A stretch of DNA of 64,000 bases. It comes from Mesorhizobium loti (GTDB lineage Bacteria; Pseudomonadota; Alphaproteobacteria; Rhizobiales; Rhizobiaceae). The stretch spans positions 6,743,020 through 6,807,019 of the forward strand of contig AP017605.1 in assembly GCA_002356515.1 (NCBI GenBank), read 5' to 3'. Shown one piece after another: positions 9,989 to 58,963 of this stretch. The notes beneath the pieces are model-generated. The model made no database searches, was not told the origin of the DNA, and worked only from the letters and a program-made list of their open reading frames with translations. Numbering within the stretch: position 1 is the stretch's first letter; every line of letters begins with the position of its first letter. The position numbers were made by a program, and so were the translations under genes.

Positions 9989-10011
9989 TTTTCTCCTCCG
10001 TTCGGTTTCGT

Positions 10012-11169: not shown

Positions 11170-11171
11170 GG

Positions 11172-20732: not shown

Positions 20733-20773
20733 TGTTATGTTCCCTTCCAGTCCAGGCGCGCCCCATGCACGCC

Positions 20774-21475: not shown

Positions 21476-21477
21476 GG

Positions 21478-22182
21478 TCAGCGCCTCCCCAGATAGACGT
21501 CGCGGACCATTTCGTCGGTCTCGATGTCGTGGAAAGGACCGCTGCGCAGCCGGCGTCCCTGATGCAGCACCAGCGTCTCGCAGTTCAGCGCCCGCACGAA
21601 GCGAATGTCGTGCTCGACGGCGACGATCGAGAACTCGCCCTTGAGCCGCAGCAGCATCTCGGCGGTCGCCAGCGTCTCCTGCGGCGTCATGCCGGCGGTC
21701 GGCTCGTCGAGCAAAAGCAGCCTTGGCTCGATCGCCAGCGCCATGCCGATCTCAAGCCATTGCTTCTGGCCGTGCGCCAGTTCACCGGCCAGCGTGGTGG
21801 CGCGGCCGCCAAGCGCGACCAGGTCCATGAGGTCACGGATCGGACGAGCCGGGGAGGGCGCGCCCCACCGCGCGACCTTCAGATTGTCTTCCACCGAGAG
21901 GCTCGGAAAGACCGACGGAATCTGGAATTTTCGCGCGATGCCGAGCCGGGCGATGCGGTGCAGCGGCAGGCCGGCAATGTCGTGGCCGAGGAAGCGCACG
22001 CTGCCGCTGGTCGGGCGAAGCGTGCCGGTCAAAAGGTTGAGGAAGGTGCTCTTGCCGGCGCCGTTCGGCCCGATGATGCAGCAGAGCTCCTTGTCGCGGA
22101 CCGTCAGGTTCAGCCCTTCCAGCGCCTGCAGTCCGCCGAAGCGGATGCCGACATTTTCGGCGTGGAGCAGGACATCGCTCAT
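21478..22182 (-). CDS. ABC transporter ATP-binding protein (UrtD/LivG-like)
   Basis: A 234-residue ATPase with Walker A GPNGAGKST near residue 37 and Walker B LLLDEPTAGMTPQET. The signature is shifted to LAHGQKQWLEIGMAL (HGQ instead of SGG), the variant usual in UrtD-type subunits. This supports the urea/amide assignment. I chose the ATG at 22182, which overlaps the permease stop as ATGA; the open frame to 22296 only extends into the permease gene. Confidence 0.91.
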   Translation of the reverse strand: MSDVLLHAENVGIRFGGLQALEGLNLTVRDKELCCIIGPNGAGKSTFLNLLTGTLRPTSGSVRFLGHDIAGLPLHRIARLGIARKFQIPSVFPSLSVEDNLKVARWGAPSPARPIRDLMDLVALGGRATTLAGELAHGQKQWLEIGMALAIEPRLLLLDEPTAGMTPQETLATAEMLLRLKGEFSIVAVEHDIRFVRALNCETLVLHQGRRLRSGPFHDIETDEMVRDVYLGRR

Positions 22183-23165: not shown

Positions 23166-24019
23166 CGCGACGCTCCGTTGAACAGGCCGTTGGGCCGCAG
23201 GCGGACGGCGACGATGGCCGCCAGCAGCACGATCGCCTGCGCCAGCGATGGCGAAATCTGGTAGTTGAGGATGCTGGTCAGCCCGCCGACGAAGACGCTG
23301 CCGGCGACAAGCCCGCCGATCGAGCCGACGCCGCCGACGATGACGACGAAGAAGGCGTTGGCGAGATAGTTCACCCCCATCTGCGGCAGCACGATCGCCA
23401 GCGGCGCGACCAGCCCGCCGGCGAGCCCGGCAATGGCCGCGCCGAAGGTGAAGGCGATGGCGTAGGTGCGGCGCGTGTTGATGCCGACGCCCTCGGCCAT
23501 TTCGCGGTTCTGGATGACGGTGCGGATGTCGAGCCCGAAGGACGTCCGGCTGATCAGCAGGACGACGCCGAGCAAGGTCAGCATGGCGATCGCGATCAGG
23601 ATCAGCCGGTAGGCCGGATAGACGGTGAAGAACAGGTCGAACGTGCCCTCGATCGGCGGCGTCACCGGCTTGGCGCCGAGGCCGAAGGTCAGTTCCAGCC
23701 CTTGCTGCAGGATGAGGCTGACGCCCCAGGTGGCAAGCACGGTCGAGACTGGCCGCGAATAGAGGTGGCGGATGATGGCGAATTCCAGGATGCAGCCGAC
23801 CACCGCGCCGGCGATCGGTGCGGCGGCGAGCCCCAGCCAGAACGAGCCGCCGACGCTCTGGACGAAATAGACCGCGAAGGCGCCGACGGTGACGAACTCG
23901 CCATGCGCCAGATTGGTCACGTTCATCAGGCCGAAGCTGATTGCCAGCCCGAGCCCGACCAGCATCAGGATGCTGATCAGCGTGAGCGCGTTGAGGAGCG
24001 TGGTGACGACAAAATCCAT
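23162..24019 (-). CDS. ABC transporter permease (UrtB/LivH-like)
   Basis: A 285-residue permease with the LivH-type sequence LGLAISFGLMNVTNLAHGEF near residue 20 and the loop RTVIQNREMAEGVGINTRR near 155. I chose the ATG at 24019 because it starts directly with the first membrane segment and lies 4 nt after the deacetylase-like gene stop. The longer frame adds a cysteine-rich piece that belongs to that gene. It pairs with the 22179-23165 product. Confidence 0.91.
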   Translation of the reverse strand: MDFVVTTLLNALTLISILMLVGLGLAISFGLMNVTNLAHGEFVTVGAFAVYFVQSVGGSFWLGLAAAPIAGAVVGCILEFAIIRHLYSRPVSTVLATWGVSLILQQGLELTFGLGAKPVTPPIEGTFDLFFTVYPAYRLILIAIAMLTLLGVVLLISRTSFGLDIRTVIQNREMAEGVGINTRRTYAIAFTFGAAIAGLAGGLVAPLAIVLPQMGVNYLANAFFVVIVGGVGSIGGLVAGSVFVGGLTSILNYQISPSLAQAIVLLAAIVAVRLRPNGLFNGASR

Positions 24020-24023
24020 CGCG

Positions 24024-25145
24024 TCAGGCAGCACTGGCAAGGCGTTGGCGCAGGCCGGCGAGCAGGCCCTCGGCGGCATCGATCACTTGAGCCTGATGCG
24101 GCTGCAAATCCTGCCCGGCCCATTCGTCGATATGGTCCGATAGGGGATCGACCACTTCGGTGCGATGATTGGCCAGCGTCTCGATGACGGCGTGACCGCA
24201 GAACGGCACATAGCCCTCGGAGTAGCCGCCTTCATGGCTCATCATCAGGCGCCCGTTCGATGTCTCGGCAGCCAGCGCCACCATGCGCGCGGCAAGGCGC
24301 CGGAAGCACTCGCTGTTCAGCATCATGCGGCCGAGCGGATCGAAGCCGGACGCATCGAAGCCGGAAGCGACAATGACGAGATCCGGCTTGAAGGCGCGCA
24401 GTGCGGGGGCGACGACGCGGTCGAAGCTGGCTTCATAGGCGCCGGTGCCGCTGCCGGCCGGCAGCGGGACATTGATGTTGTAGCCTTCGCCTTCGCCCTT
24501 GCCATTGTCGGCCAGCGCGCCGCGCCCGGTCGGATAGAGATTGTCCTGGTGCAGGGAAATGGTCAGTACCGACGGATCGGAATAAAACACCGTCTCGGTG
24601 CCGTTGCCGTGATGCACGTCCCAGTCGACGATCGCTGCGCGGCCGAGCAGGCCCTCATGCTGCAGCCGGCGCACGGAGACGCCGATATTGGAGAACAGGC
24701 AGTTGCCCATCGCCTGGTCGGGCTCGGCATGGTGCCCGGGCGGCCGCGCCAGTGCATAGGCGTTGTCGACACGGCCGGTCAGCACCGCGCGCATCGCGGC
24801 ATAGGTGGTGCCGGCCGACAGGAGCGCGATGTCGAAACTGTTGAGGCCGATCGGCGCCTGCGGCCCGGCGAAGCCGGAGCCGCGCTCGCTGAGCATCCTG
24901 ATATCGTCGACATGGCGCTGCGTGTGGACGCGCAGCAGATCCTCGACCGTCACCGGCTCGGCGACGATCGGCACCAGATGGCGCGCCAGGCCGCTGACCT
25001 GGATCAGGTTGTTCAGCCGGCGCTTTGACCCCGGTGATTCCAGGTGCCGTCCGGGTTCCACGAAGCGGCCGGGAGGCATCATGTCGGCGCTGGAGCCGGT
25101 GTCATGCCACATCAGCTGTTCGTGAAAAACGTAACCTGTCGCCAT
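24024..25145 (-). CDS. Histone-deacetylase-family amidohydrolase (acetylpolyamine-amidohydrolase-like)
   Basis: A 373-residue zinc hydrolase of the arginase/deacetylase fold. The catalytic histidine pair is in RPPGHHAEPDQ near residue 140, two zinc ligands are in VDWDVHHGNGTE near residue 178, and the third is in SGFDASGFDPLG near 268. Bacterial relatives remove acetyl groups from polyamines and other small amides. It is first in the operon with the importer (4-nt gap), so it probably acts on the imported compound. The exact amide is unknown. Confidence 0.9.
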   Translation of the reverse strand: MATGYVFHEQLMWHDTGSSADMMPPGRFVEPGRHLESPGSKRRLNNLIQVSGLARHLVPIVAEPVTVEDLLRVHTQRHVDDIRMLSERGSGFAGPQAPIGLNSFDIALLSAGTTYAAMRAVLTGRVDNAYALARPPGHHAEPDQAMGNCLFSNIGVSVRRLQHEGLLGRAAIVDWDVHHGNGTETVFYSDPSVLTISLHQDNLYPTGRGALADNGKGEGEGYNINVPLPAGSGTGAYEASFDRVVAPALRAFKPDLVIVASGFDASGFDPLGRMMLNSECFRRLAARMVALAAETSNGRLMMSHEGGYSEGYVPFCGHAVIETLANHRTEVVDPLSDHIDEWAGQDLQPHQAQVIDAAEGLLAGLRQRLASAA

Positions 25146-28765: not shown

Positions 28766-30067
28766 ATGCCTGAGCGAATTGCCGACGAAGCCATTTTGCG
28801 CGCGGTCGATGACGGCTTCGCGCGGCAAGTCGCGTTCCTGGCGGACCTCGTACGCTTTCCCTCCCAGCGCGGCGAGGAGCACGCCGCGCAATCCTTCATG
28901 GCGGCTGCCTACCAGGCCGATGGCTATGCGGTCGACATGTGGCGTGTCGATGTCGACGCGATCCGCGACCTTCCGGGTTTTTCACCGGTTGCGGTTTCCT
29001 ATGACGACGCCTTCAACGTCGTCGCCACGCATACGCCGCGAAACGCCACCGGCCGATCGCTCATCCTCAATGGCCACATCGACGTGGTACCGACGGGACC
29101 GCTCGACCGCTGGGTGCGCGATCCCTACGACCCGGCCATCGAGGATGGCTGGATGCATGGCCGCGGCGCCGGCGACATGAAGGCCGGCCTGTCGGCCTGT
29201 CTCTACGCGCTCGCCGCCTTGCGCAGCCTCGGCTATCAGCCGGCCGCGAATGTCTTCCTGCAGTCGGTGGTCGAGGAGGAATGCACCGGCAATGGCGCGC
29301 TCGCTTGCCTGCAGCGCGGCTACCGCGCCGATGCAGCCTTCATTCCCGAACCCTTGGAACCGCGCCTGATGCGGGCGCAGGTTGGTCCGATCTGGTTCAG
29401 GGTCGAGGTTGATGGCGATCCGCAGCATGCCTCGGGGGCTTTCTCGGCCGGTGCCAATGCCATCGAAAAGGCATTCGTCATCATCCAGGCGCTGAAGCAG
29501 CTCGAAATCGTCTGGAACGCGCGCAAGGTCGATGATCCGCATTTCTGCAATCATCCGCATCCGATCCGCTTCAATCTCGGCAAGATCGAAGGCGGCGAAT
29601 GGACATCGAGCGTTCCGGCGCGCTGTGTCTTCGAGATGCGGGTCGCGACCTATCCCGGGCAGAAACTCGAGGACGCCCGGGCCGAGCTCGAAGCCTGCAT
29701 CGCCGATGCGGCCCGTGCCGATCCGTTCCTGGCCAATCGCCCGCCCAAGATGAGCTACAATGGCTTCATGGCCGAGGGCTATGTGCTTGAAGACGCCGAC
29801 GAGATGGAAGCCGTGCTGCGGCGCAGCCATGTCGCCGTGTGGGGCGAACCGCTGACGGAGCACGTCACCTCGGCGACAACGGATGCGCGTTTCTTCGGCC
29901 TCTATGCCGACACGCCGGCGATCGTCTATGGCCCGATCTGCCGCATGCCGCATGGCTATGACGAGGCCGTCGATCTGGATTCGGTGCGCAAGGTCACGCA
30001 GACCATTGCGCTGTTCATCGCCGACTGGTGTGGTCTCGAGCCGATCGATCCGGAGATGAGCTCATGA
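28766..30067 (+). CDS. M20-family deacylase/peptidase (ArgE/DapE type)
   Basis: A 433-residue co-catalytic zinc hydrolase. Metal and catalytic motifs are NGHIDVVPTG near residue 102, HGRGAGDMKAGLS near 134, the VVEEECTGNG glutamate pair near 170, and CRMPHGYDEAVD near 395. Relatives remove acyl groups from alpha-amino acids and related amines. The ATG at 28766 lies just after the inverted repeat; the longer frame to 28727 would include half the operator. It begins a tightly coupled operon with a kinase and a PLP enzyme. Confidence 0.9.
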   Translation: MPERIADEAILRAVDDGFARQVAFLADLVRFPSQRGEEHAAQSFMAAAYQADGYAVDMWRVDVDAIRDLPGFSPVAVSYDDAFNVVATHTPRNATGRSLILNGHIDVVPTGPLDRWVRDPYDPAIEDGWMHGRGAGDMKAGLSACLYALAALRSLGYQPAANVFLQSVVEEECTGNGALACLQRGYRADAAFIPEPLEPRLMRAQVGPIWFRVEVDGDPQHASGAFSAGANAIEKAFVIIQALKQLEIVWNARKVDDPHFCNHPHPIRFNLGKIEGGEWTSSVPARCVFEMRVATYPGQKLEDARAELEACIADAARADPFLANRPPKMSYNGFMAEGYVLEDADEMEAVLRRSHVAVWGEPLTEHVTSATTDARFFGLYADTPAIVYGPICRMPHGYDEAVDLDSVRKVTQTIALFIADWCGLEPIDPEMSS

Positions 30068-31122
30068 ATGCGGCCGTGCCTGACGGTTTCGGCGAAACGC
30101 TCGCCGAGGATGCGCCGGACGTCTCGATCGCCGACGCGCTCGTCATCTTGCGCCGGCACTATGGGTTCACCGGCAGCGCGCGTCCGCTGCCGGGCGAACG
30201 CGACCACAATTTCCACATCCAGACCGACGGCGAGGGCGAGTTCGTCCTCAAGGTCTCCCACCCGGCGGAGGAGGCCGGCTTCACCGATTTCCAGAACAAG
30301 GCGCTCGACCATATCCTGGCGGTCGACCCGACCTTGCCGGTCCCCTCGGTGCACAAGAGCTTGGAAGGCGAAGCGCAGTTCACGCTCAGCGTCGGTGGAT
30401 CGGCGCCGCGTATCATCCGGCTGGTTACCTATCTGCCTGGCCAGTTGCTGTCGCGCTCGCCCACATCGGCGGCACAGGATCGCAATCTCGGCATCTTCCT
30501 CGCCCGCCTTGGCCGGGCACTGCGCGGTTTCTTCCATCCGGCGGCCGGCAGCGACCTGCTCTGGGATATCCGCAAGGTCGCCAAGACGCGGCCGATGCTG
30601 GCGCATATCGCCGATGCCGGCCATCGGGCCATGGTCGAGCGTGTGATGGACGCTTTTGAAGAGCATGCGGCGCCGGTCATCCCGAGCCTGCGCGCGCAGA
30701 TCGTCCACAACGACATGAATTCCTACAATGTGGTGATGGACGCGTCGCGGCCGGAGGTGGTCAGCGGCATCCTCGATTTCGGCGACATGATCCATTCGCC
30801 GCTGATCTGCGACCTCGCCATCGGCGCCGTCTATCGCTGGCCGGCTGAAGGTCATCCGCTGGCGTCCGCCGCGCGCTTCGTCGCCGGCTACCAGTCAGTG
30901 CAGCCGCTGGAGACGGAAGAGATCGGCATCCTTTTCGATCTGATCCGTGCCCGCCTTGCCCTTATCGCCAACATCGCCAGCTGGCAGGCGGAACGCTTCC
31001 CGGCCAAGCGCGACTATGTGCTGCGCCTCATCACCGAAGTCTGGGCCTCGCTCGAACGGCTGGACGGCCTGTCGTCCGCTGACGCCGGCCGCTATTTTCT
31101 CGACCATTCCAATCCGGAGTAG
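30064..31122 (+). CDS. APH-family phosphotransferase (hydroxylysine-kinase-like)
   Basis: A 352-residue aminoglycoside-phosphotransferase-fold kinase. The nucleotide-binding part has GEFVLKVSHPAEEAG near residue 62. The catalytic loop is IVHNDMNSYNVVM (the Brenner-type HNDMNxxN) near residue 217, and the metal aspartate is in GILDFGDMIHS near 237. With the adjacent class III PLP enzyme it resembles the hydroxylysine kinase and phospho-lyase pair, in which the alcohol of an amino alcohol is phosphorylated and then eliminated. The ATG at 30064 overlaps the deacylase stop as ATGA. Confidence 0.85.
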   Translation: MNAAVPDGFGETLAEDAPDVSIADALVILRRHYGFTGSARPLPGERDHNFHIQTDGEGEFVLKVSHPAEEAGFTDFQNKALDHILAVDPTLPVPSVHKSLEGEAQFTLSVGGSAPRIIRLVTYLPGQLLSRSPTSAAQDRNLGIFLARLGRALRGFFHPAAGSDLLWDIRKVAKTRPMLAHIADAGHRAMVERVMDAFEEHAAPVIPSLRAQIVHNDMNSYNVVMDASRPEVVSGILDFGDMIHSPLICDLAIGAVYRWPAEGHPLASAARFVAGYQSVQPLETEEIGILFDLIRARLALIANIASWQAERFPAKRDYVLRLITEVWASLERLDGLSSADAGRYFLDHSNPE

Positions 31123-32433
31123 ATGCCCGTGTCCCAGTCCTCGCCATATCCCGCAAATGCCGACTCGAGGGCATCCGAGCGCGCGCTGCTCGAACGCCGC
31201 GCCAGGCTGCTCGGGCCGACCTACCGCGCCTTCTACCGCAACCCGATCCATCTGGTGCGCGGCAGCGGCGTCTGGCTCTACGATGCGGGAGGACGCAAAT
31301 TCCTCGACGCCTACAACAATGTCGCCTCGGTCGGGCACTGCCATCCGCGCGTCGTCGAGGCGCTGTCGGGGCAGGCCGCCACCCTCAACACGCACACACG
31401 CTATCTGAGCGAGATCATTCTCGACTATGCGGAAAAACTGCTCGGCACGGTTCCGGCCCATCTCGGCCATGCCATGTTCACTTGCACCGGCAGCGAGGCC
31501 AACGACCTTGCCATCCGCATCGCCCAACATTCGAGCGGCGGTACCGGCGTCATCATCACCGACTTCGCCTATCACGGCGCCACGATCGCGACCGCTCAGC
31601 TTTCACCAGCGGCGGTCGGGGCAAAGGGCGTGCCCGCCCACCACCGGACCGTGGCAGCGCCGGACACATTCCGCGACCATGGCCGCGCCGCGCATGATTT
31701 CGCCGGAAATGTCGCAGCTGCCATCGAGGACATGCGTGCGCAAAACATCCTTCCGGCGGCGCTTCTGCTCGACTCGGCCTTTTCCAGCGACGGCATTTTC
31801 TTCCCCGACGCCGCTGTCATGCGCGAGGCGGCCGATCACGTCAGGAAGGCCGGCGGCATCGTCATAGCCGACGAGGTCCAGTCCGGTTTCGGTCGGCTTG
31901 GCCAGGGTATGTGGGGCTTTGCCAATTATGGCCTAGAGCCCGACATCGTCACCATGGGCAAGCCGATCGGCGACGGGCATCCGATGGGCGCGGTGCTGGT
32001 GCGGCCGCGGCTTGTTTCGTCCTTCGGCTCGAACACCGGCTATTTTAACACATTCGGCGGCAATCCGGTCGCGGCCGTCGTCGGCATCGCGGTGCTGGAC
32101 GTGATCGAAGGCGAGGGGTTGATCGAGAACGCGCGCAATGTTGGCGCTTATACAGCTGAGTTGCTGCGCGCTTTGCAGACCCGGCACGGCATGGTGGGTG
32201 ACGTCAGGCACAACGGCCTCTATTTCGGCGTCGAGCTGACGGCCGATGGCGACGAAGCGCTGGCCGCAAGCAAGACGTCAGCGGTCGTCGAAGCCATGCG
32301 CGAGGATGGCGTGCTGATCTCGTCCTGCGGTCCGCGTGGCAACGTGCTGAAGATCAGGCCGCCGCTGCCCTTTGCCAGGGACAATGCCGAGCAACTGGCC
32401 GAGACGCTCGATCGCGCTTTGTCGAACTGGTGA
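31123..32433 (+). CDS. Class III aminotransferase-fold PLP enzyme (phospho-lyase-like)
   Basis: A 436-residue PLP enzyme. The cofactor aspartate is in [15 protein letters not shown] near residue 250, and the PLP lysine is Lys280 in [13 protein letters not shown]. The GDGHPMGAV form is typical of AGXT2L-type phospho-lyases acting on phosphoethanolamine or phosphohydroxylysine, rather than of ornithine transaminases. It starts at the base after the kinase stop. I expect it to remove phosphate and ammonia from the kinase product, but a true transaminase cannot be ruled out. Confidence 0.85.
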
Positions 32434-32442
32434 TCGGGGCGC

Positions 32443-33099
32443 ATGCTGAAGCTCGAACATCAAACCCTCAACGACCGCGCCTATGGCGCTCTCAAACAGG
32501 AATTGATTTCAGGCGGTTTCAGCCCGGGCCAGACACTTGTCATCCGCAAGCTCGCCGAGACCTTCGGCATCTCGACAACGCCGATCCGCGAGGCGCTGCA
32601 AAGGCTGGTCGCCGAGCGGCTGCTTGAGATGCAGAACAACCGCTCGATCATCGTGCCGCTGCTGTCGGCTCCGGCCTTTGAGGAACTGACTCAGATCCGC
32701 ATCGCCGTCGAAGGACTGGCGGGCGAGATGGCCGCGTTGCGGATGAGCGAAAGCGGACTGGTCGACATACAGGCGACGCTGGCCGGCATGCAGCGCGCCA
32801 TCGAGGCCGGCGATGCCAGGGCCTACCTCTCGCTGAACGAGGCCTTTCACTTCGCCATCTACCAGCATGCCGGCGCGCCGATCCTGTTGAACATGATCCG
32901 CGATCTCTGGGGTCGGGTTGGGCCTTATCTGAAGCTGCTGATGCAGGCCGATCGCTACATTCCGCAGTCGAATGACGCGCATCGCAGGATTGTTGCCGCA
33001 TTGGAGCAGCGCAATGGTCCCGCCGTCCGGGTCTCTCTTGAACAGGACATCGCCGTGGCAGCCGCGGTTCTTTCCGAAAATCTGCGCATGACGGCCTGA
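32443..33099 (+). CDS. GntR-family regulator (FCD type)
   Basis: A 218-residue regulator with an N-terminal winged helix (LNDRAYGALKQELISGGFSP, then LAETFGISTTPIREALQRL) and an all-helical FCD ligand domain from about residue 80. The metal-binding histidines fit LNEAFHFAIYQHAG and SNDAHRRIVAALE. It closes the deacylase-kinase-PLP operon (9-nt gap), so it probably controls it through the inverted repeat at 28709-28756. The ligand is unknown; FCD proteins usually bind small carboxylates. Confidence 0.92.
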   Translation: MLKLEHQTLNDRAYGALKQELISGGFSPGQTLVIRKLAETFGISTTPIREALQRLVAERLLEMQNNRSIIVPLLSAPAFEELTQIRIAVEGLAGEMAALRMSESGLVDIQATLAGMQRAIEAGDARAYLSLNEAFHFAIYQHAGAPILLNMIRDLWGRVGPYLKLLMQADRYIPQSNDAHRRIVAALEQRNGPAVRVSLEQDIAVAAAVLSENLRMTA

Positions 33100-33123: not shown

Positions 33124-34428
33124 TTATCCGGTCTCGTCCAGCCGGTCGCGCAACATGCTCCAGCCGAGCAGCATGTTGGGCGCGTGCCGCAGCACCGCAT
33201 GGAAGGGGATCGGCGCCGGCGGTGCGAACGGCAGCGGCAAATCACGAGCCTCGATTCCCGCAGCCCAGTCGGCCAACACCTTGCCCATCGCCGTCGTCAT
33301 GGCAATGCCGCGCCCGTTGCAGGCGCGACCGGCGATCAACCCCGGTCCGAGGTCCAGGAGATGTGGCAGGAAATCCGGTTCGACCGCGGCCATTCCCGAC
33401 CAGCCATAGGCCAGCGGCGGCAGGTCCGGCAAATCGAGATGCCTGGCGAGGCGCCGCCAGATCGTTTGCGGCACGCGCGTGTCGGCGCCGGCACTCAGAA
33501 TATGCATGCCGCCGCTGATCAGCCGGTTGTCGGCGTCGAAGCGGAAGGTGAAGAGATTGCGCCTGGTGTCGCCGGCGCCTTGCCCGCCGGGAAGCAGCCG
33601 CGTGCGGATTTCGCTCGACAGCGGCTCGGTCGCGATCTGAAAAACCTTCAGCGGAAAATAGCTTCGTTGCAGCAGCGGATTGAGCGACCCGCCATAGGCG
33701 TTGGTGGCGATCAGCACCTTGCCGGCACGCACCGAGCCCGATGGCGTTTTCAGCGACCAGCCATCGGCCGCGCGATCGACCGAGGTGACCGGCGTGCGCT
33801 CGAAGATCTTGGCGTCAGCCTTTTCCGCCGCATCGGCCAGTCCGTTCGCATAGGCGACCGGATTGAGCACGCCACCTGAACGGTCCATCCAGCCGCCGGC
33901 ATAGCCGCGAACGCCCGTCAGCGCTTCGATTTCCTGCCTATCCAGCGTGACAGCTGGCCGGCCGCGCCGCGCCCATTGCCCGGCCCGCGATTTGACCTTC
34001 TCGAAGGCGGCGGGCGAATGCGCCGGTTGGATCCATCCGTTCTGCACGGCGTCGCAGTCGATGCCGTGCCGTTTGATAAGACCGAAGACAAGGTCGGCGC
34101 TGCCGGCGGCAAAATCGATCAGTCTCTCGCCGCGCTCTGGGCCGAGATGCGCAAGGATGTTGTCCGGGTCCATCTTGGCGAAGTTAGGCACGACGAAACC
34201 GGCATTCCTGCCGGTCGCGCCCCAGGCGATGATTTCGGCCTCGAGAACAGCGACCGAGATGCCATTTTCGGCGGCATGCAGCGCCGTTGAAAGGCCGGCA
34301 AAGCCGCCGCCGACGATTGCGAGGTCGACATTGATCTCGTCGTGCAGCGCGGGCCGGTCGCGGCGGTTGCGGCTGACGGCATGCCAAAGTGAAGCGCCAT
34401 GCGCTTCCTGCCGGATCGCAGTGTTCAT
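33124..34428 (-). CDS. FAD-dependent amine/amino-acid oxidase (DAO family)
   Basis: A 434-residue flavoprotein. The ADP-binding motif VDLAIVGGGFAGLSTALHAA starts near residue 33, and the second glycine-rich FAD stretch is GPGLIAGRACNGRGIAMTT near residue 375. The middle holds the DAO substrate domain, with WSGMAAVEPDFLPHL typical of PuuB/OrdL-like gamma-glutamylputrescine oxidases. It is the last gene of the LivG-F-H-M operon (ATGA overlap) and so probably oxidises the imported amine or amino acid. It is convergent with the GntR gene at 32443. Confidence 0.9.
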   Translation of the reverse strand: MNTAIRQEAHGASLWHAVSRNRRDRPALHDEINVDLAIVGGGFAGLSTALHAAENGISVAVLEAEIIAWGATGRNAGFVVPNFAKMDPDNILAHLGPERGERLIDFAAGSADLVFGLIKRHGIDCDAVQNGWIQPAHSPAAFEKVKSRAGQWARRGRPAVTLDRQEIEALTGVRGYAGGWMDRSGGVLNPVAYANGLADAAEKADAKIFERTPVTSVDRAADGWSLKTPSGSVRAGKVLIATNAYGGSLNPLLQRSYFPLKVFQIATEPLSSEIRTRLLPGGQGAGDTRRNLFTFRFDADNRLISGGMHILSAGADTRVPQTIWRRLARHLDLPDLPPLAYGWSGMAAVEPDFLPHLLDLGPGLIAGRACNGRGIAMTTAMGKVLADWAAGIEARDLPLPFAPPAPIPFHAVLRHAPNMLLGWSMLRDRLDETG

Positions 34429-35405
34429 GAGCCGTAACTACTCTTGGCTGTAGCCACCTTCGCCCGCTTGCCCAGTCGTGGCCGTCGCAGTCTGTCGCCG
34501 AACAAACCATTGGGCCTGATCAAGAGGATGACGCAGAGCATAACGCCGATGGCGACGATCTGCAGCGAGGCCGCGCGCGCCTGCTGCTCCGGCGCAAACA
34601 GCACGCTGGTCAGCGTGCCTGACCCCGCCCATATTCCCCAGACCAGGATGCTGCCAATGACGGCGCCGAGATTGCTGCCCGAGCCGCCGACGATCAGCAT
34701 CACCCACACCTGGAAGGTCAGGATCGGCAAATAATTATCCGGTGCGATGAAGCCGGTGAAATGCGCCTGCAATGCGCCGGCCAGCGCCATGATGGCGCCG
34801 CCGACGGCAAAGGCCTGGATGCGGTAGAAGCGCGCGCTCTTGCCAAGCGAAATCGCCGCCCGCTCATCCTCGCGCAAGGCCTTCAGCACGCGTCCCCACG
34901 GGCTGCGCGACAGATGCTCCAAAGCGAAAAAGACAACTAGCGTCACCGCGCAGACGACGGCGAGGTTCGACAGGTTGAACAGCAGCGGCGTCTCGGCAAG
35001 GCTGCCGAAGGGGCGTGGGATGAAGCCGATGCCGAACGGCCCGCCGGTCAGCTTCTGTGCGTTGAGTGCGACGAGTTGCACGACCACGGCAACACCGAAT
35101 GTGGTGATTGCCAGATAGTCGGACTTGAGCCGCAGCGTCGCCATGCCAGTCAGAGCTGCAGCAATGCCGCCGACGACCATGGCGCCGAGCCAGCCGACAA
35201 GGATCGGCAGGCCGAAGCCACCGAGCCGCGCGGCATCGTCAGGCGTGGTCAGCAGCGCGGAAGTATAGGCGCCGATGGCGACGAAGCCGGCGAGGCCGAC
35301 ATTGAACAGGCCGGTGAGGCCCCACTGCAGATTGAGCCCCAGCGTGACCAGCGAAAAGATCAGCGCGGTGGTCAGGAAGAAGGCGCCGTAGCCGAGCAGG
35401 TCCAT
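34425..35405 (-). CDS. Branched-chain-type ABC transporter permease (LivM-like)
   Basis: A 326-residue permease with LGLNLQWGLTGLFNVGLAGF near residue 22 and the coupling loop ALREDERAAISLGKSARFYR near 180. The tail is basic and ends KVATAKSSYGS. I chose the ATG at 35405, which overlaps the stop of the partner permease by one base (TGATG). A 681-codon open frame covers this gene, but its first half is a shadow of the partner permease. Confidence 0.92.
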   Translation of the reverse strand: MDLLGYGAFFLTTALIFSLVTLGLNLQWGLTGLFNVGLAGFVAIGAYTSALLTTPDDAARLGGFGLPILVGWLGAMVVGGIAAALTGMATLRLKSDYLAITTFGVAVVVQLVALNAQKLTGGPFGIGFIPRPFGSLAETPLLFNLSNLAVVCAVTLVVFFALEHLSRSPWGRVLKALREDERAAISLGKSARFYRIQAFAVGGAIMALAGALQAHFTGFIAPDNYLPILTFQVWVMLIVGGSGSNLGAVIGSILVWGIWAGSGTLTSVLFAPEQQARAASLQIVAIGVMLCVILLIRPNGLFGDRLRRPRLGKRAKVATAKSSYGS

Positions 35406-36313
35406 CAGCGTTCCCTCACACCAAACAGGCCGATCGGCCGCACGAACAACACCGCCATCAGGATGATGAAGGAGACGGCGGCGCGCCATTCGGCGCCGAT
35501 CAGCTGTACAGCGCCGGCTTCGGCCAGCCCGATGATCAAGCCGCCGAGCACCGCGCCCGGAATGCTGCCGATGCCGCCCAGGATGGCGGCGGCGAACATC
35601 GGCAACAGCATGTCGAAGCCCATGAACGGGCGGATCTGCACCAGAATGCCGATCATCACGCCGGCGACGCAGGCAAGCGCACCGCCGATGATCCAGGTTA
35701 CGCGCACCACGCTGGCGACGTCGATGCCGACAATGCGGGCCAGCGCCGCGTTCTGGCTCAGTGCCTGCATGGCGCGGCCGGTCTGCGTGCGCGTCATCAG
35801 AAGATGCACGCCGAGCACCAGCACGGCGGTCAGCAGCAAGAGTGCGATCTGGTCGGGCGTGATGCGGATGCCGAAGCCGACCGGCATGGCGATCTGGATC
35901 GCCCGGCTGAAATAGGTCGGCCGCGAGCTGAAGGTGAATTCGAGCAGGCTGCGCAGCGCCATCGAGGCGCCGAAACTCGCCATCACCACGATGATCGCTT
36001 GCCCTTGCGAGCGCAGTCGCGAAAACAACACCTTGTCGAGTAGCAGCGCCAGCAGCGCAGTGAAGGCCATGCCGACGACCAGGGCGACAAGCAACGGCCA
36101 GCCAAACGACAACGGACCAATGGGCGCCACCTTGCCGAACATTGCGCCGATGGCGCTGACGACGGCTAGCGTCGCATAGGTGCCCCAGGCCATGAAGTCG
36201 CCATGGGCAAAATTCGAGAAGCGCAGGATCGAGTAGGTCAGCGTCACGCCGATGGCGCCGAGGCCGATCATCGAACCGGTCAGCAAGCCGTCGACGACAA
36301 ATTGCAGGCTCAT
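35405..36313 (-). CDS. Branched-chain-type ABC transporter permease (LivH-like)
   Basis: A 302-residue permease with GAIGVTLTYSILRFSNFAHG near residue 20 and the coupling loop MQALSQNAALARIVGID near 180. A conserved GGIGSIPGAVLGGLIIG stretch lies near residue 250. I chose the ATG at 36313, which overlaps the ATPase stop as ATGA; the frame to 36385 would overlap that gene by 75 nt. It forms the channel with the LivM-like product. Confidence 0.92.
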   Translation of the reverse strand: MSLQFVVDGLLTGSMIGLGAIGVTLTYSILRFSNFAHGDFMAWGTYATLAVVSAIGAMFGKVAPIGPLSFGWPLLVALVVGMAFTALLALLLDKVLFSRLRSQGQAIIVVMASFGASMALRSLLEFTFSSRPTYFSRAIQIAMPVGFGIRITPDQIALLLLTAVLVLGVHLLMTRTQTGRAMQALSQNAALARIVGIDVASVVRVTWIIGGALACVAGVMIGILVQIRPFMGFDMLLPMFAAAILGGIGSIPGAVLGGLIIGLAEAGAVQLIGAEWRAAVSFIILMAVLFVRPIGLFGVRER

Positions 36314-37059
36314 GCCGCGCCTCCCTTGCTGGCGTGGGAAGGGCGTTGGCCGAGATAGAGTTCGGCGACGACCGGATCGTTCCACAGTTCGGATGCGACA
36401 CCCTCGTGCCGGTCCTTGCCTTCGACAAGCACATAGGCACGGTCGCCGATGGCCAGTGCCGCCTTGGCATTCTGCTCGACCAAAAGGATGGTGACGCCGG
36501 ATTTGCGGATGCCGGCCAGCATCTCGAACACCATCGAGACGAATTTCGGCGACAGGCCGGCCGACGGCTCGTCCAACACCAGCACCTTGGGATGGACGAT
36601 CAAGGCGCGGGCGACGGCGAGCATCTGCCGTTGCCCACCCGACAGATTGCCGGCGGCGGTGCGGCGCTGGCGAACGAGGTCGGGGAAGGCGGCATACATT
36701 TCCTCGATGCGGGCAGGGATCTCGCGCCGCTCGAGGATACCGCAGGCAACCCTGAGATTGTCCTCAACCGACATCAGCGGAAAGATGTTTTCCGTCTGCG
36801 GCACGAAGGCGAGGCCAAGCCGCACCATGGTGTGGGCGGGTGCCGCGGTGATGCCCTTGCCATCCAGGAACACGGTGCCGCCGGTGATCGGGACGAGGCC
36901 GGCAATCGCCTTGATGAAGCTCGATTTGCCGGCGCCGTTGGGGCCGAGGACGACGACGATCTCGCCCTTGCTGACGGTGATCGAGGCGCCGCGCACGATC
37001 GGCACACCAGGCTCGTAACCGGCTTCGAGGTCGCGCACGTCGAGGACGGTCTCGCTCAT
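36310..37059 (-). CDS. Branched-chain-type ABC transporter ATPase (LivF-like)
   Basis: A 249-residue ATPase with Walker A GPNGAGKSS near residue 39, signature LSGGQRQMLAVARAL near 140, and Walker B VLVLDEPSAGLSP. It lacks the long extensions seen in other ABC families, as expected for LivF. It overlaps the LivG-like gene as ATGA at 37056-37059. It acts with that ATPase on the inner membrane. Confidence 0.92.
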   Translation of the reverse strand: MSETVLDVRDLEAGYEPGVPIVRGASITVSKGEIVVVLGPNGAGKSSFIKAIAGLVPITGGTVFLDGKGITAAPAHTMVRLGLAFVPQTENIFPLMSVEDNLRVACGILERREIPARIEEMYAAFPDLVRQRRTAAGNLSGGQRQMLAVARALIVHPKVLVLDEPSAGLSPKFVSMVFEMLAGIRKSGVTILLVEQNAKAALAIGDRAYVLVEGKDRHEGVASELWNDPVVAELYLGQRPSHASKGGAA

Positions 37060-37856
37060 GCCGTGCCTCCGAGATAGGCCTCGATGACGCGCGGGTCGCG
37101 CGCGACCTCTTCCGCCGTGCCTTCGCTGAGCAGTTGCCCGCTCGCCATGACCAGGACGCGATGGCAGAGCCGCGTCACCATGTCGATGTTGTGCTCGATC
37201 AAGAGGAAGGTGATGCCGCGCGCATTGATGTCGCGGATGCGGTCGATGATGACTTCGAGCAGTGTCGCGTTGACGCCGGCTGCCGGTTCGTCGAGCAGGA
37301 TGATCGCTGGGTCGGCCATCATGACGCGGGCGAGTTCGAGCAATTTGCGCTGGCCGCCGGAAAGCACGCGCGCCGGCTCATGCGCGAGGTGGGTGAGGGT
37401 GACAAGCTCCAACAGGTCGAGCGCCTTTGCCCTGGCCGCCTTTTCCTGTGCCGCCACCCGCCATGGTGTAACGAAGTTGGCCAGAAGCCTTTCGCCGGCC
37501 TGGCCCTGTGCCGCCAGCATGATGTTTTCGATCAGCGTCAGATTGGGCAGCGGGCGAGGGATTTGGAAGGTGCGGCCGAGGCCACGGCCGATGCGCAGAT
37601 GCGCGGCTTCGCCCGAGACGCGCACGCCGTTGAGAAGGATGTCGCCGCTGGTCGGCAATATGCTGCCCGCGAGCAGGTCGAACATCGTTGTCTTGCCGGC
37701 GCCGTTCGGTCCGATCAGGCCGAGGATTTCGCCGGCCCTGACATCGAACGAGACATCGTTGACGGCGACAAGGCCGCCGAACCGCCTGACGACATTCCTT
37801 GCCGTCAGGACCGGCGCACGGGTCTCCTTCCCCTGCCGTTCGGTTGCCTCGCTCAT
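37056..37856 (-). CDS. Branched-chain-type ABC transporter ATPase (LivG-like)
   Basis: A 266-residue ATPase with Walker A GPNGAGKTT near residue 53, the LivG insertion region around LANFVTPWRVAAQEKAARAK, signature LSGGQRKLLELARVM, and Walker B IILLDEPAAGVNA. It is the first gene of a five-gene operon and divergent from a GntR gene. I chose the ATG at 37856; the open frame to 38009 would cross the shared promoter and enter the GntR gene. Confidence 0.92.
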   Translation of the reverse strand: MSEATERQGKETRAPVLTARNVVRRFGGLVAVNDVSFDVRAGEILGLIGPNGAGKTTMFDLLAGSILPTSGDILLNGVRVSGEAAHLRIGRGLGRTFQIPRPLPNLTLIENIMLAAQGQAGERLLANFVTPWRVAAQEKAARAKALDLLELVTLTHLAHEPARVLSGGQRKLLELARVMMADPAIILLDEPAAGVNATLLEVIIDRIRDINARGITFLLIEHNIDMVTRLCHRVLVMASGQLLSEGTAEEVARDPRVIEAYLGGTA

Positions 37857-37904
37857 CAAACCCTCTGGCCGAAGACGATCGTTGTCGCCTCCTGATTTTT
37901 GATT

Positions 37905-37928
37905 TGTGATCACACTTGCTTTGATCAC
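37905..37928. promoter_or_regulatory. Putative GntR operator in divergent promoter
   Basis: TGTGATCACA (37905-37914) is a perfect palindrome, and its core TGATCAC recurs in the same direction at 37922-37928, 15 nt on. The pair lies in the 124-nt gap between the LivG-like and GntR genes. The adjacent GntR protein is the natural candidate to bind it. Confidence 0.55.
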
Positions 37929-37980
37929 GCTATTCGGCTTTAATTTCATCCGCAAGCCGAAAACGGGGCAAAAGCCGGGA

Positions 37981-38709
37981 ATGCAGAAGGCTGCCATCGA
38001 AAAGAACAACGAAACGATCGCAGCCCAGCTGACGCCGGTCGGCCGCGAGACCGTGCAGGATCGCGTCTATTCCGAGTTACGCCGGGCTCTGATCGGCGGC
38101 CTGTTCGAGCCGAACCAGGTGCTGACCATCCGTGGCCTGGCTGATGCGCTGGTCACTTCGACAATGCCGGTACGCGAAGCGCTCGGCCGGCTGATCACGG
38201 AAAAGGCGCTGGAGGCGCTGCCCAACCGTTCCGTGCGCGTGCCGCCGATCACGCTGGAGCGTATCGACGACCTTCTGCGCGCCCGCTCCCTCATCGAAGG
38301 CGAAGCGATCGCGCTTGCCGCCACGCGCATGAGCCCGCGCCAGATCGCTTCGATTGAAGCCATGCTAGGCGAGTGGGACGAGATGCGGGCCCTGAAGCAC
38401 AAGAAGGATATCGACCGCGAAGCGACGCTCAACCAGAGCTTCCATTTCGAGATCTACCGCTGCTGCGGGTCGGCCGTGCTGATCCCGATGATCGAAAGCC
38501 TGTGGCTGCAATCGGGCCCCTGCATCCGCGTTGCCATTTATGCCTTTTCCGACGCCGGCGAGGTCGACACCGCGCACTACCACCGCAGCATCGTCGCAGC
38601 TCTCGCCAAGCAGGATGCGCAGGCGGCGCGCGAGGCATTGGTGGCCGATATAAGCCGGCCCTTTGCTTTCCTGCGCGACAAGCTTCAATCCACGAAAGAC
38701 CTGACATGA
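37981..38709 (+). CDS. GntR-family regulator (FCD type)
   Basis: A 242-residue regulator with winged helix (VQDRVYSELRRALIGGLFEP, then LADALVTSTMPVREALGRL) and an FCD domain from about residue 100 (NQSFHFEIYRCCGSAVLIPM; AHYHRSIVAALA). It is divergent from the importer operon and overlaps the next plus-strand gene as ATGA, so it is both regulator and first gene of its own operon. The ATG at 37981 fits the domain start; an upstream ATG at 37906 lies within the operator. Confidence 0.92.
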   Translation: MQKAAIEKNNETIAAQLTPVGRETVQDRVYSELRRALIGGLFEPNQVLTIRGLADALVTSTMPVREALGRLITEKALEALPNRSVRVPPITLERIDDLLRARSLIEGEAIALAATRMSPRQIASIEAMLGEWDEMRALKHKKDIDREATLNQSFHFEIYRCCGSAVLIPMIESLWLQSGPCIRVAIYAFSDAGEVDTAHYHRSIVAALAKQDAQAAREALVADISRPFAFLRDKLQSTKDLT

Positions 38710-39203
38710 CAACGCCCGCCATCAGGATCACCGAGCCGCGCTCTAAGCTTTCCGTGACGGCGCTGCTGCTGCCTGAAAAGGCTCCGGAAAACGCTGCCTT
38801 TCTCAAGGCGTATCTCACTGCCCCGCGCGTGGTCCCAGGCATCCATGCCATGTGGACCGGGCCAGAGATTTCCTGCCCGGTTCCATCGGTGGATCTCGAA
38901 GGCCAGTCCTTCGCCAAGCCGTTGCCGGCGGAGAACGCGACGCTGACGCCGCAGCCCGGCGACATCGTGCTGTCCTACGTGCCGCCGCGCATGTGGGGCG
39001 GCAACCCCAATGCCATTTTCGACATCGGTCTCTATTACGGGCAGGGCGCGCGGCTTCTGTTCCCGATCGGCTGGCTGGCCGGCAGCGTGGTGGCGCAGGT
39101 CCTGCCGGAGGAGCGTGAGCAGTTCGCCGCCGCCTGTGGCGTCATCCGCCGCAACGGTGCCTGCGACATGACCTTCAGCCTGGTGGAGGCCTCGAATGGC
39201 TGA
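38706..39203 (+). CDS. Cyclophilin-like-fold protein of unknown function (DUF3830-like)
   Basis: A 165-residue protein with the segment GDIVLSYVPPRMWGG near residue 80 and IFDIGLYYGQGARLLFPIGW near 98. This pattern resembles the DUF3830 group, whose known structure is cyclophilin-like and whose role is unknown; the assignment is by memory and only moderately certain. There is no signal peptide. It overlaps both the GntR gene (ATGA) and the next gene (8 nt), so it is firmly in the operon. A role in handling a cyclic or amide substrate would be speculation. Confidence 0.6.
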   Translation: MTTPAIRITEPRSKLSVTALLLPEKAPENAAFLKAYLTAPRVVPGIHAMWTGPEISCPVPSVDLEGQSFAKPLPAENATLTPQPGDIVLSYVPPRMWGGNPNAIFDIGLYYGQGARLLFPIGWLAGSVVAQVLPEEREQFAAACGVIRRNGACDMTFSLVEASNG

Positions 39204-39549
39204 CGACAGTTTCGAGCTTTTCGATCTTCGCGTCGAGGCGGTCATCCCCGAGGGCAAGCCGATCTATTGCGGCGCCAAGCCGGGCGACTATTTCGAGCTC
39301 AAGGGCGAGATGCTGTCGATGCCGGCAGGGCAGAGTTTTTCGATCTATTCGCTTGCCTCCGTATTGCCGTTTCTCGCGGCAAAGCAGCGGCCGACCGACC
39401 GCAATGACTGGATGACCTCTGACGCCGAGATCGCTTGTCCCGATCCCAATTGCGCCAGCCGGCTGCGGATCGTCAGACTGGCCAAGCGGCGATTCAGCCA
39501 TGCCGAAACCACGGCCGTGCCGCTGCCGAAGGAGAATGACCGGACATGA
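39196..39549 (+). CDS. Small protein of the TIGR04076 type
   Basis: A 117-residue protein. It has FDLRVEAVIPEGKPIYCGA at the start, SIYSLASVLPFLAAKQRP in the middle, and the conserved ACPDPNCASRLRIVRL near residue 80, a pattern I recognise from TIGR04076 proteins. Two or three cysteines (residues about 25, 80 and 85) could bind metal. No activity is established for the family. GGTGGAGG precedes the ATG, and both ends overlap neighbours. Confidence 0.65.
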   Translation: MADDSFELFDLRVEAVIPEGKPIYCGAKPGDYFELKGEMLSMPAGQSFSIYSLASVLPFLAAKQRPTDRNDWMTSDAEIACPDPNCASRLRIVRLAKRRFSHAETTAVPLPKENDRT

Positions 39550-40601
39550 CCGCCAAGACCTTCGAGCTCGGCCCCGGCTACACCATCTCGCGCGTCATTC
39601 GCGGCGGCTGGCAGCTCGCCGGCGGCCATGGCGCCATCGATCGCAGCCAAGCGGTCACCGACCTGATCGCCACTTTCGATGCGGGCATCTGGACCTATGA
39701 TTGTGCCGACATCTACACCGGCGTCGAAGAACTGATCGGCGCCGCGCGCCTGCGGCTGGCCAGCGAGCGTGGCCTCGATGTCGCCGCCAGGATGAAGGTG
39801 CATACCAAGCTGGTGCCCGACCTTGAACGGCTGGCCACGATCAGCCGCGACTACATCAGGGGCATCGTCGATCAGTCGCTGCGCAGGCTGAAGACCGAGC
39901 GTCTCGATCTCGTGCAGTTCCATTGGTGGGACTATGATCAGCCTCGTTATGTCGAGGCGATGGGGTGGCTCAACGAACTTCGGTTGGAAGGCAAGGTGCG
40001 CAATCTCGGTACCACCAATTTCGACACGCCGCGGCTCGCCGAGATCCTCGTCGCAGGCATCCCGCTGGTCAGCCAGCAACTGCAATATTCCGTGCTCGAT
40101 CAGCGGCCGGGCAATAGCCTCGCCGCACTTGCAGAGAAAAACGGCGTCAGCTTCCTCTGCTATGGTTCCGTCGCCGGCGGCTTCCTCAGCGACAAATGGC
40201 TTGGCGTGGCCGAACCGGCGATGCCGCTCGAAAACCGCTCGCTGGTCAAATACAAGCTGATCATCGATGATTTCGGTGGCTGGGACCTTTTCCAGCAACT
40301 GCTCCAAGCACTTAAGGCCGTTGGCGATCGCCACGGCGTCGACATCGCCACCATCGCCAGCGCCTGGGTGCTTGAACAGCCGCGCGTGGCGGCCGTCATC
40401 GTCGGCGCCCGCAATCAGGCCCATGCACTGGCCAATGCTGGCATCATGGACGTCGCGCTCGACGCCGATGATCGGGCGAAGATCACGGCCGTGATCGCGC
40501 AAAGCCAGGGTCCCCTGGGCGACGTCTACACGCTGGAGCGCGACCGGCACGGCCGTCACGGCTCGATCATGCACTACAATTTGAACGCAGGCCGCACATG
40601 A
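39546..40601 (+). CDS. Aldo/keto reductase
   Basis: A 351-residue (beta/alpha)8 oxidoreductase. The catalytic tetrad is visible as Asp and Tyr in TYDCADIYTGVEELIG (near residue 52), Lys in MKVHTKLV (near 84), and His in LVQFHWWDYD (near 122). NADPH-binding elements lie in the last third (VAAVIVGARNQAHALANA). It overlaps both neighbours by ATGA. It probably reduces or oxidises a carbonyl/alcohol derived from the imported compound. Confidence 0.9.
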   Translation: MTAKTFELGPGYTISRVIRGGWQLAGGHGAIDRSQAVTDLIATFDAGIWTYDCADIYTGVEELIGAARLRLASERGLDVAARMKVHTKLVPDLERLATISRDYIRGIVDQSLRRLKTERLDLVQFHWWDYDQPRYVEAMGWLNELRLEGKVRNLGTTNFDTPRLAEILVAGIPLVSQQLQYSVLDQRPGNSLAALAEKNGVSFLCYGSVAGGFLSDKWLGVAEPAMPLENRSLVKYKLIIDDFGGWDLFQQLLQALKAVGDRHGVDIATIASAWVLEQPRVAAVIVGARNQAHALANAGIMDVALDADDRAKITAVIAQSQGPLGDVYTLERDRHGRHGSIMHYNLNAGRT

Positions 40602-41029
40602 GTGTCAGCAACCCCATGCTGTTTTCGCAGGCCAGCGCCGAAATCGTCGGCCTGCATCGCTTCTTCGTCGACTGGTTTGTCGCCGCGCGTGCCGACACGG
40701 TGGATTTCTCGCGCTTCGAGCGTGCCATGGGCGAAAGCTTGACCATGATCGCACCGAGCGGCCAGATTCTCGATCGTGACGCTGTGATCGATCATGTCCG
40801 CTCCAGCCGTGCCACCTGCGATGACGGCTTTGCCATCTCGATCGAGGACATCCGGCCGGGCTGGCAAAGCGCCGATACGATCGTTGTCTTCTACGTCGAG
40901 ACGCAACTCCGCGCGGGCAAGCACACGCGCCGGCAGTCGAGCGCCGTCTTCACCACCAGTTCATCGGCGCCCAACGGCGTCGAATGGCGACATCTGCATG
41001 AAACCTGGCTGCAGGTGCCGGAACGCTGA
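40598..41029 (+). CDS. NTF2-like/SnoaL-like small protein
   Basis: A 143-residue protein of the cone-shaped alpha+beta class (DUF4440/SnoaL style). It begins with a helix (IVGLHRFFVDWFVAARADTV), then alternating strands (SLTMIAPSGQILDRDAVIDH) and ends WRHLHETWLQVPER. Members include isomerases, dehydratases and proteins without enzyme activity. It overlaps the reductase gene as ATGA and precedes the binding-protein gene by 49 nt. The function is unknown. Confidence 0.7.
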   Translation: MSVSNPMLFSQASAEIVGLHRFFVDWFVAARADTVDFSRFERAMGESLTMIAPSGQILDRDAVIDHVRSSRATCDDGFAISIEDIRPGWQSADTIVVFYVETQLRAGKHTRRQSSAVFTTSSSAPNGVEWRHLHETWLQVPER

Positions 41030-41078
41030 ACAGGCTCCAGAGATCAAATTAGAGTCGAGTAACGAAAGGGGAACAACA

Positions 41079-42338
41079 ATGAGAAAGACGATACTCCAAC
41101 TCACCACCGCGCTTGCTCTCGTGACGCTGGCAGGCGCCGCGCAGGCCGCCGACTGCAAGATCACCGTCGGCCTCGTCATGGAACTGACCGGCCCAGCCGG
41201 CGAATACGGCCAAGCCGGCGCCAAGTCCGTCGAGATGGCCTTCCGCGACATCAACGCCGCCGGCGGCGTGCGCGGCTGCGATCTGGCGACCGACACGCGC
41301 GACAGCCAGAGCCAGGGCAACATCGCCGTCGACGCCGCCACCCAGCTGGTCCAGGTCAAGAAGGTGCCGGTCATCATCGGCGGCATCATCTCGTCGGTGT
41401 CGATCCCGATCCTGACCTCGGTCACAGCGCCGGCCAAGATCGTCCAGGTCTCGCCGGCATCATCGTCGCCGACACTGACCGCGCTTGGCCGCGACGGCAA
41501 GACCAACGGCATCTTCTTCCGCACCATCACCTCGGATGCGCTGCAGGGCGTCGCCGCCGCCAAATACGCCATCGACAAGGGCTTCAAGAAATTGTCGATC
41601 ATCCACGTCAACAACGACTTCGGCGTCAACATGGTGGCCGAATTCTCGCGCGCCTACAAAGCGCTCGGCGGCACCATCGTCTCCGACACGCCCTACAACG
41701 AGAAGCAGTCGAGCTATGCCTCTGAAGTCACGGCGGCGATGGCGGGTGAACCGGACGGGCTCTACCTGGTCAGCACGCCGGTAGACGGCGCAACCGTTGC
41801 CCGCACCTGGATTTCGCAAGGCGGCGTGCAGAAATTCCTACTCAATGACGGCATGAACAGCCCTGATTTCATCGAATCCGTCGGCGCCGATTATCTCAAG
41901 GATGCCTACGGCACGTCGTCCGGCACCAGTCCGACGGCCTCCACCGATTACTTCATGAAGAACTACAAGGAATTTTCCGGTATCGAACCGTCGAACCCGG
42001 CCGCCGACCGTTCCTATGACGCCGGTGCCATCGTCGGCCTCGCCATCGCCATTGCCGGCTCCGAGGATCCGGCCAAGATCAAGGACGCAATGTACAAGGC
42101 GGTCGATCCGGCCGGCACGCCGATCTTTGCCGGCAAGGAGGAGTTCGCCAAGGCGCTCGGCTTGATCAAGGACGGCAAGCCGATCCGCTATGAAGGCGTC
42201 ATCGGTCCGGTCGCCTTCGACAAATATGGCGACATCACCGGCCCGTTCCGGCTGTGGAAGATCGTCGACGGCAAGGTGACCACCGACGGTGAAATGACCA
42301 CCGACGACGTCAACGCGCTGCAGGCCAAGCTCCAGTAG
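41079..42338 (+). CDS. Branched-chain-type ABC transporter substrate-binding protein
   Basis: A 419-residue type I receptor with a signal peptide over residues 1-23 (MRKTILQLTTALALVTLAGA, cleavage after AQA). The mature part opens CKITVGLVMELTGPAGEYGQ, typical of LivJ-like proteins, and includes SIIHVNNDFGVNMVAEF near residue 175. AAAGGGGAAC precedes the ATG at 41079. It must serve the LivGFHM-like importer encoded on the other strand, which has no other receptor gene. It is the last gene of the GntR-led operon, followed by a 28-bp palindrome. Confidence 0.92.
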   Translation: MRKTILQLTTALALVTLAGAAQAADCKITVGLVMELTGPAGEYGQAGAKSVEMAFRDINAAGGVRGCDLATDTRDSQSQGNIAVDAATQLVQVKKVPVIIGGIISSVSIPILTSVTAPAKIVQVSPASSSPTLTALGRDGKTNGIFFRTITSDALQGVAAAKYAIDKGFKKLSIIHVNNDFGVNMVAEFSRAYKALGGTIVSDTPYNEKQSSYASEVTAAMAGEPDGLYLVSTPVDGATVARTWISQGGVQKFLLNDGMNSPDFIESVGADYLKDAYGTSSGTSPTASTDYFMKNYKEFSGIEPSNPAADRSYDAGAIVGLAIAIAGSEDPAKIKDAMYKAVDPAGTPIFAGKEEFAKALGLIKDGKPIRYEGVIGPVAFDKYGDITGPFRLWKIVDGKVTTDGEMTTDDVNALQAKLQ

Positions 42339-58939: not shown

Positions 58940-58963
58940 CAGGCGATCCTCGTCAGCGGTCCA

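Follow-up and report, generated by a model that had tools for sequence, protein, structure and literature searches.

Several described systems resemble parts of a locus at positions 33124-42338 of a 64,000-nucleotide stretch of the Mesorhizobium loti genome (assembly GCA_002356515.1, contig AP017605.1, positions 6,743,020 to 6,807,019; hereafter the window), where an importer, a GntR regulator and a set of putative enzymes are encoded together. The importer has the same subunit set as LIV-type ABC importers, a pair each of PF02653 permeases and ABC ATPases found together with a single Peripla_BP_6 receptor, and its receptor keeps the serine, alanine, serine and aspartate that align with the pocket of the solved receptors 3ip5-3ipc, although among the matches listed no Liv or Urt subunit model reaches its curated cut-off. 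For the DAO-family flavin adenine dinucleotide (FAD) oxidase (33124-34428, minus strand; PF01266, 223 bits), the best NCBIfam match is the L-pipecolate oxidase AmaA, nearly full length but at 310 bits against the NF050086 cut-off of 600, and the window's enzyme differs in being linked to a DUF3830 protein. Searched as a profile, it also matches DAO-family enzymes of known structure, sarcosine and glycine oxidases among them and best of all 1y56_B (deposited as sarcosine oxidase); a single-sequence search of solved structures returned no match at 1e-10.

The DUF3830 protein itself (38706-39203, plus strand) matches PF12903 over its full length (104 bits, gathering cut-off 26) and is related to the solved chain 3kop, which we take to have a cyclophilin-like fold, but within PF12903 it falls in a DAO-linked subfamily. 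The TIGR04076 protein (39196-39549, plus strand) scores 52.7 bits, above the curated cut-off of 33; a table in PMC8667426 lists, for a sulfonate microcompartment cluster, a TIGR04076 member with a potential link to redox or iron clusters, whereas the window's branch is tied to an aldo/keto reductase (AKR; 39546-40601, plus strand; PF00248, 215 bits). Rid proteins (PF01042) enter by sequence through sister loci rather than the window, as an AKR-Rid fusion that departs from the family both in the fused AKR and in an asparagine replacing the catalytic arginine; PMC4433059 and PMC5619798 treat that arginine as the criterion for Rid imine hydrolysis, and PMC4433059 places Rid genes in clusters with FAD-dependent amine oxidases. 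An initial annotation of this DNA had known of no described pathway with this gene set and had counted two proteins without known activity; a full-text literature search, with most subscription-journal papers outside its coverage, likewise found no such pathway, no paper on DUF3830/PF12903, only PMC8667426 on TIGR04076 and none on AKR-Rid fusions (40 fetched loci, L139-L305); DUF3830 and TIGR04076 stand as families lacking a known activity.

Exchangeable enzyme pairs on a common chassis

Comparison of gene content across related loci shows that the importer, GntR regulator and receptor form a common chassis carrying two separable pairs, TIGR04076+AKR and DUF3830+DAO, with an AKR-Rid fusion occupying the place of DUF3830+DAO in many sister loci. 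TIGR04076 relatives were sought in 26 plasmid records and in overlapping samples of the class (20/385 genomes), phylum (13/398) and order (44/297), from which 72 loci were fetched (9 of the 26 plasmid records among them), leaving out, from the order and phylum samples, a contig-end match (G1042) and same-genus near copies (G012, G021, G030, G047, G720). A custom codon-model caller predicted the genes of the fetched loci, which were then named by BLAST against a custom reference set; the families of the unit's own genes were assigned with Pfam and NCBIfam models and their cut-offs. An AKR directly adjoins TIGR04076 in 69/72 loci (the misses being L146, L224 and L229), against a background of 12 of 443 unclassified genes of the same loci that have an AKR as direct neighbour.

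By content, 42 of the 72 loci have AKR-Rid (type A) and 4 have DUF3830 (type B); in 4 more Rid is a standalone gene, and the other 22 fit none of these groups. All 42 type A loci keep TIGR04076 and AKR and have neither DAO nor DUF3830 nearby; the fusion is full length in 40 of them, being cut by a contig end in L290 and represented only by a 138-aa Rid-like gene in L278, and one locus (L286) duplicates another (L142). All four type B loci (L173, L184, L190, L270), conversely, carry DAO and none carries AKR-Rid. The standalone-Rid loci carry HyuA/HyuB. Within the genus the same alternation is seen: TIGR04076 occurs in 42 of 61 Mesorhizobium genomes, adjoined by DUF3830 in 39 and accompanied by AKR-Rid without DUF3830 in three (G005, G054, G055), with both in none. 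Since DUF3830+DAO is missing from 42 AKR-Rid loci that keep TIGR04076+AKR, the set is not one fixed pathway, and the initial annotation's picture of a single pathway with two new steps gives way to pairs that are found apart elsewhere.

The second pair is also found without the first. Caballeronia has an importer, receptor and GntR with DUF3830, an adjoining DAO and a class V pyridoxal-phosphate (PLP) enzyme, and TIGR04076 and AKR were not found in the 18 kb read there; on three Deinococcus plasmids DUF3830 directly adjoins DAO, and peptidases of the M24 Xaa-Pro type lie there too, as does a class V PLP enzyme. Plasmid L150 of Mesorhizobium sp. B1-1-8, read in addition, carries the whole unit near repA (1-12623), which suggests that the unit can move between replicons as a block. 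As observations on the same set of loci, M81/MlrC-family metallopeptidase genes adjoin TIGR04076/AKR loci L190, L213 and L218, and near TIGR04076 loci there recurs, with an aspartate-dehydrogenase-like gene, a roughly 1130-aa protein whose annotation in L145 (4785-8171) is nitrate reductase catalytic subunit and which looks similar by eye in L300 (9445-12831) and L301 (5338-8727).

Among close relatives, the gene set recurs too regularly to be a chance grouping. A scan of named genomes kept the best 80 of 164 DUF3830-gene relatives (named Mesorhizobium and Rhizobium loci, Mesorhizobium species being nearest), and gntR, DUF3830, TIGR04076, AKR, the NTF2-like gene and the receptor are present in all 80; LivM, LivH, LivF, LivG and DAO are present in 79, all five being missing from L020, a short contig. 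The small genes thus co-occur with the importer in 79/80 loci, and the expectation that the genes serve one process is borne out in the sense of a co-inherited unit. DAO is at least 60% identical and adjoins LivM in 65/80 loci, while 14 loci of the Rhizobium lusitanum/tropici group have a different DAO (40-44% identical) placed downstream of the receptor instead.

The AKR sequences were placed on a tree of 77 rows, built by a quick method with SH-aLRT support. Three changes are required there for the DUF3830 type, of which starred branches force at least two, and the AKR of L184 pairs with a type A row as its sister. Averaged over independent pairs, DAO accompanies DUF3830 in 1.9 of 2 and AKR-Rid is lost in 1.5 of 2, the expected direction. 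In a DUF3830 tree of 49 rows, which carries a long-branch warning and leaves the wrong-frame L173 row unused, nine rows (window, type B kin, Caballeronia) form a starred clade with support 96, the three Deinococcus rows join it at 84, and 25 others form a separate clade (99, starred). A separate DUF3830 subfamily is that of L180, L181 and L182, other Mesorhizobium genes that lie with a dihydropyrimidinase-like gene and an ABC importer of a different type.

Residue conservation was evaluated for each putative enzyme. In DUF3830, E76, G85 and G151 are kept in 42/42 sequences and H47 in 37/42. The TIGR04076 cysteines C25 and C81 are kept in 32 of 33 aligned sequences and C86 in 31, the exceptions being haloarchaeal L144, which lost all three together, and Rhodococcus L146, without the last; this pattern suggests, short of showing, a metal site. 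A phmmer search of solved structures with TIGR04076 returned no match at E 1. What we take to be the AKR catalytic tetrad (Asp, Tyr, Lys, His) is complete in the window as D52, Y57, K88 and H126, the first three in 32/32 rows. In the Rid domain of the sister loci, the position of RidA Arg105 is Asn in 45/45 sequences (40 fusions, 5 standalone). We had considered DUF3830 as a stand-in for a RidA-like imine hydrolase and rejected it on that count.

Receptor pocket and operator-like block

The receptor (41079-42338, plus strand; PF13458, Peripla_BP_6, 155 bits) was compared at six pocket positions anchored by alignment to 3ip5 and 3ipc. In all 13 type B rows (the window's own, eight from the 80 named loci and four from sampled ones) these positions read I, S, A, S, F, D, and the same residues stand in 30/31 type A rows, save one V for I; the exception, four positions off, reads as L282, whose receptor is of another kind (26% identical). 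Caballeronia reads I, S, A, S, Y, D, and among 20 distant receptors the aspartate gives way to N (15 of them), Q (4) or L (1). This aspartate presumably binds the ligand's amine, and the ligand probably bears one. The predicted pocket is of the amino-acid type, in keeping with the import of a nitrogen-containing compound first proposed for this locus.

These residues bear on whether the two types handle one compound. Because the pocket residues agree, the ligand is probably the same for both, and 30 of the 41 type A receptors comparable by length are 63-82% identical to that of the window (11 are at 33-40%). One could instead suppose that DUF3830+DAO and AKR-Rid loci degrade different compounds on a reused chassis, as the two enzyme sets are chemically unlike and modular exchange is common in catabolic islands; set against those 30 receptors, the agreement of the six residues (30/31 against 13/13) and an operator palindrome common to both types, we regard such a ligand switch as improbable.

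That palindrome, TGATCA, occurs twice, 15 bp apart (37907-37912 and 37922-37927), in an operator-like block (37901-37932) between livG and gntR that is conserved in an alignment of the window with 79 of the 80 named loci. The regulator (37981-38709, plus strand; PF00392 and PF07729) has a winged helix-turn-helix and an FCD domain, as FadR/FCD-type GntR proteins do, and the palindromic site adjoining its own gene is its predicted operator. In divergent loci with gntR beside livG, TGATCA is present in 20/20 type A, 3/3 sampled type B, 76/76 named and 2/2 other loci, and also upstream of the gntR genes of L002, L009, L052, L139 and L268, which the gene caller had overlooked and tblastn recovered; in divergent loci without a detectable gntR it is present in 1/12 (L173, with a 590-bp gap). 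The background is 988 of 7507 260-bp windows of the same loci, to be read against tested gaps averaging 326 bp. In its own genome the longer palindrome pattern has a single exact match, at this locus, and a second hit with three mismatches, while a backwards control also gave one hit; Caballeronia has two TGATCA-type sites 16 bp apart. Control by the local GntR, as first annotated, is thus borne out as a correlation between TGATCA and gntR presence only.

Proposed pathway and alternatives

To summarize its biology, we read the locus, with middling confidence, as a self-regulated island for the uptake and catabolism of a single amine-bearing solute, built of a chassis and exchangeable enzyme pairs. 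The solute would enter via the importer, and GntR would sense it or its product and release the TGATCA sites; DAO would oxidise a C-N bond to an imine, DUF3830 would process that imine or its ring-opened form, and TIGR04076 with AKR would act on the carbonyl so formed in a redox step using NAD(P)(H). This order, from import through DAO and DUF3830 to TIGR04076+AKR, is the most likely one, all of the chemistry being deduced from protein families and residues. Our best guess for the substrate class is a cyclic imino acid of the proline or pipecolate type, from leads that are each weak: the AmaA-like DAO, its sarcosine and glycine oxidase relatives, a proline-racemase-family gene in some named loci and the Xaa-Pro peptidases of Deinococcus. 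The racemase-family gene lies directly downstream of the receptor in L061 (11755-12750) and L071 (11738-12781).

A more specific version, which we put forward only tentatively and think rather less likely to hold, makes DUF3830 plus the FAD oxidase a portable two-protein enzyme that replaces AKR-Rid on the same imported amine, with TIGR04076 as a metal-binding partner subunit of the AKR; we know of no partner subunit of this kind for any aldo/keto reductase.

An ordinary imino-acid catabolism of the pipecolate or hydroxyproline type, run by DAO with DUF3830, TIGR04076 and the NTF2-like protein as accessory or protective passengers, would account for the AmaA-like oxidase and the racemase-family gene. 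The retention of DUF3830 and TIGR04076 in 80/80 loci, an oxidase score short of the AmaA cut-off and the many relatives that keep TIGR04076+AKR without any DAO speak the other way, and of the readings weighed here we find it the hardest to credit.

A cyclic-amide pathway (hydantoin, ureide or lactam), in which DUF3830 would help to open or isomerise the ring and the product would be finished by DAO and AKR, draws on the operon neighbours of other DUF3830 genes (71 of 84 proteins tested, near copies from L177, L181 and L182 left out), which include Amidohydro_1 in 4, Amidohydro_3 in 4, an Asp/Glu/hydantoin racemase in 2 and a cyanurate/barbiturate-type ring-opening amidohydrolase in 1, as well as on HyuA/HyuB adjoining TIGR04076 in L223-L227 and L293. 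The unit itself has neither an amidohydrolase nor a Hyu gene, and its DUF3830 falls in the DAO-linked clade, apart from the 25-row clade with most other DUF3830s; because most of these others lie outside the window's clade, their amidohydrolase neighbourhood was rejected as direct evidence. We judge this pathway unlikely, if somewhat less so than a switch of ligand.

Several observations weigh against the amine-catabolism island and its parts as we propose them. The swaps that are starred and independent number only two, too few for a sign test, and of the four sampled type B loci all but L270 (L173, L184 and L190) were originally fetched as DUF3830 loci. DAO does not need DUF3830, which is missing from L223 and L226 although both carry DAO, there together with a standalone Rid, and a simple imine-hydrolase equivalence between the pairs fails, the Rid domain being without its arginine throughout. 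Eleven type A receptors, those at 33-40% identity, have a different pocket, so the ligand is not common to all AKR-Rid loci, and the numbering of the pocket residues is itself assumed. The H126 position of the AKR is His in only 23/32 rows, the score of DAO is roughly half the AmaA cut-off, and proline-racemase neighbours are rare (4/80 named loci). The Hyu genes beside TIGR04076 and the amidohydrolases beside other DUF3830s, lastly, point to cyclic amides.

If the portable DUF3830+oxidase reading is true, it gives DUF3830 a first biochemical role. Two function-less families become testable in any case, because each has a partner, an importer from which the ligand should be learnt and, in close relatives, a replacement that occurs naturally. 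Knowing the receptor's ligand would allow direct assay of DUF3830, TIGR04076 and the arginine-less Rid domain, and the two versions can be compared within Mesorhizobium alone, where they occur in 39 and in 3 of 61 genomes.

Gene layout and neighbouring features

The unit consists of 11 genes, one more than the ten first counted, in two divergent operons flanking gntR; the tight overlaps reported at almost every junction are found at 8/9 same-strand junctions (1 to 8 bp, the sole gap being 49 bp between the NTF2-like gene and the receptor), and all the gene families first named are present by Pfam and NCBIfam models. The minus strand runs livG (LivG-like ATPase, 37056-37856; PF00005 and PF12399), livF (LivF-like ATPase, 36310-37059; PF00005), livH (LivH-like permease, 35405-36313; PF02653, start by the codon-model gene caller), livM (LivM-like permease, 34425-35405; PF02653) and DAO. 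The plus strand runs gntR, DUF3830, TIGR04076, AKR, the NTF2-like (DUF4440) gene (40598-41029) and the receptor. The NTF2-like assignment is marginal (PF14534, 25.7 bits against a cut-off of 25.2), and the gene was not found in every sister locus. For gntR the conserved ATG at 37981 is preferred to the GTG at 37906 of the mechanical open reading frame (ORF), which falls within the operator-like block, and the receptor start is placed at about 41079, where the mechanical ORF list gave 40794. The genome of the window has one DUF3830 gene and one TIGR04076 gene.

The flanks are variable among the named loci, with an APH gene in 26/80, a class-III aminotransferase in 27/80, a second GntR in 26/80 and a downstream FAD-linked oxidase in 22/80 (21 by the custom gene caller). 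Found in only 22-27 of the 80 loci, the upstream APH, aminotransferase and GntR1 and the downstream oxidase were rejected as unit members. In the window these upstream genes form a single run at 30028-33099, just outside the unit: an APH-family kinase and a class-III aminotransferase, followed in this listing by the second GntR, which is of the FadR type. As a guess, the run might hold a kinase/phospho-lyase catabolic pair. Further out, two stretches (19563-24034 and 55520-60241) hold, by eye, LIV-type importer-like sets of a receptor, two ATPases and two permeases.

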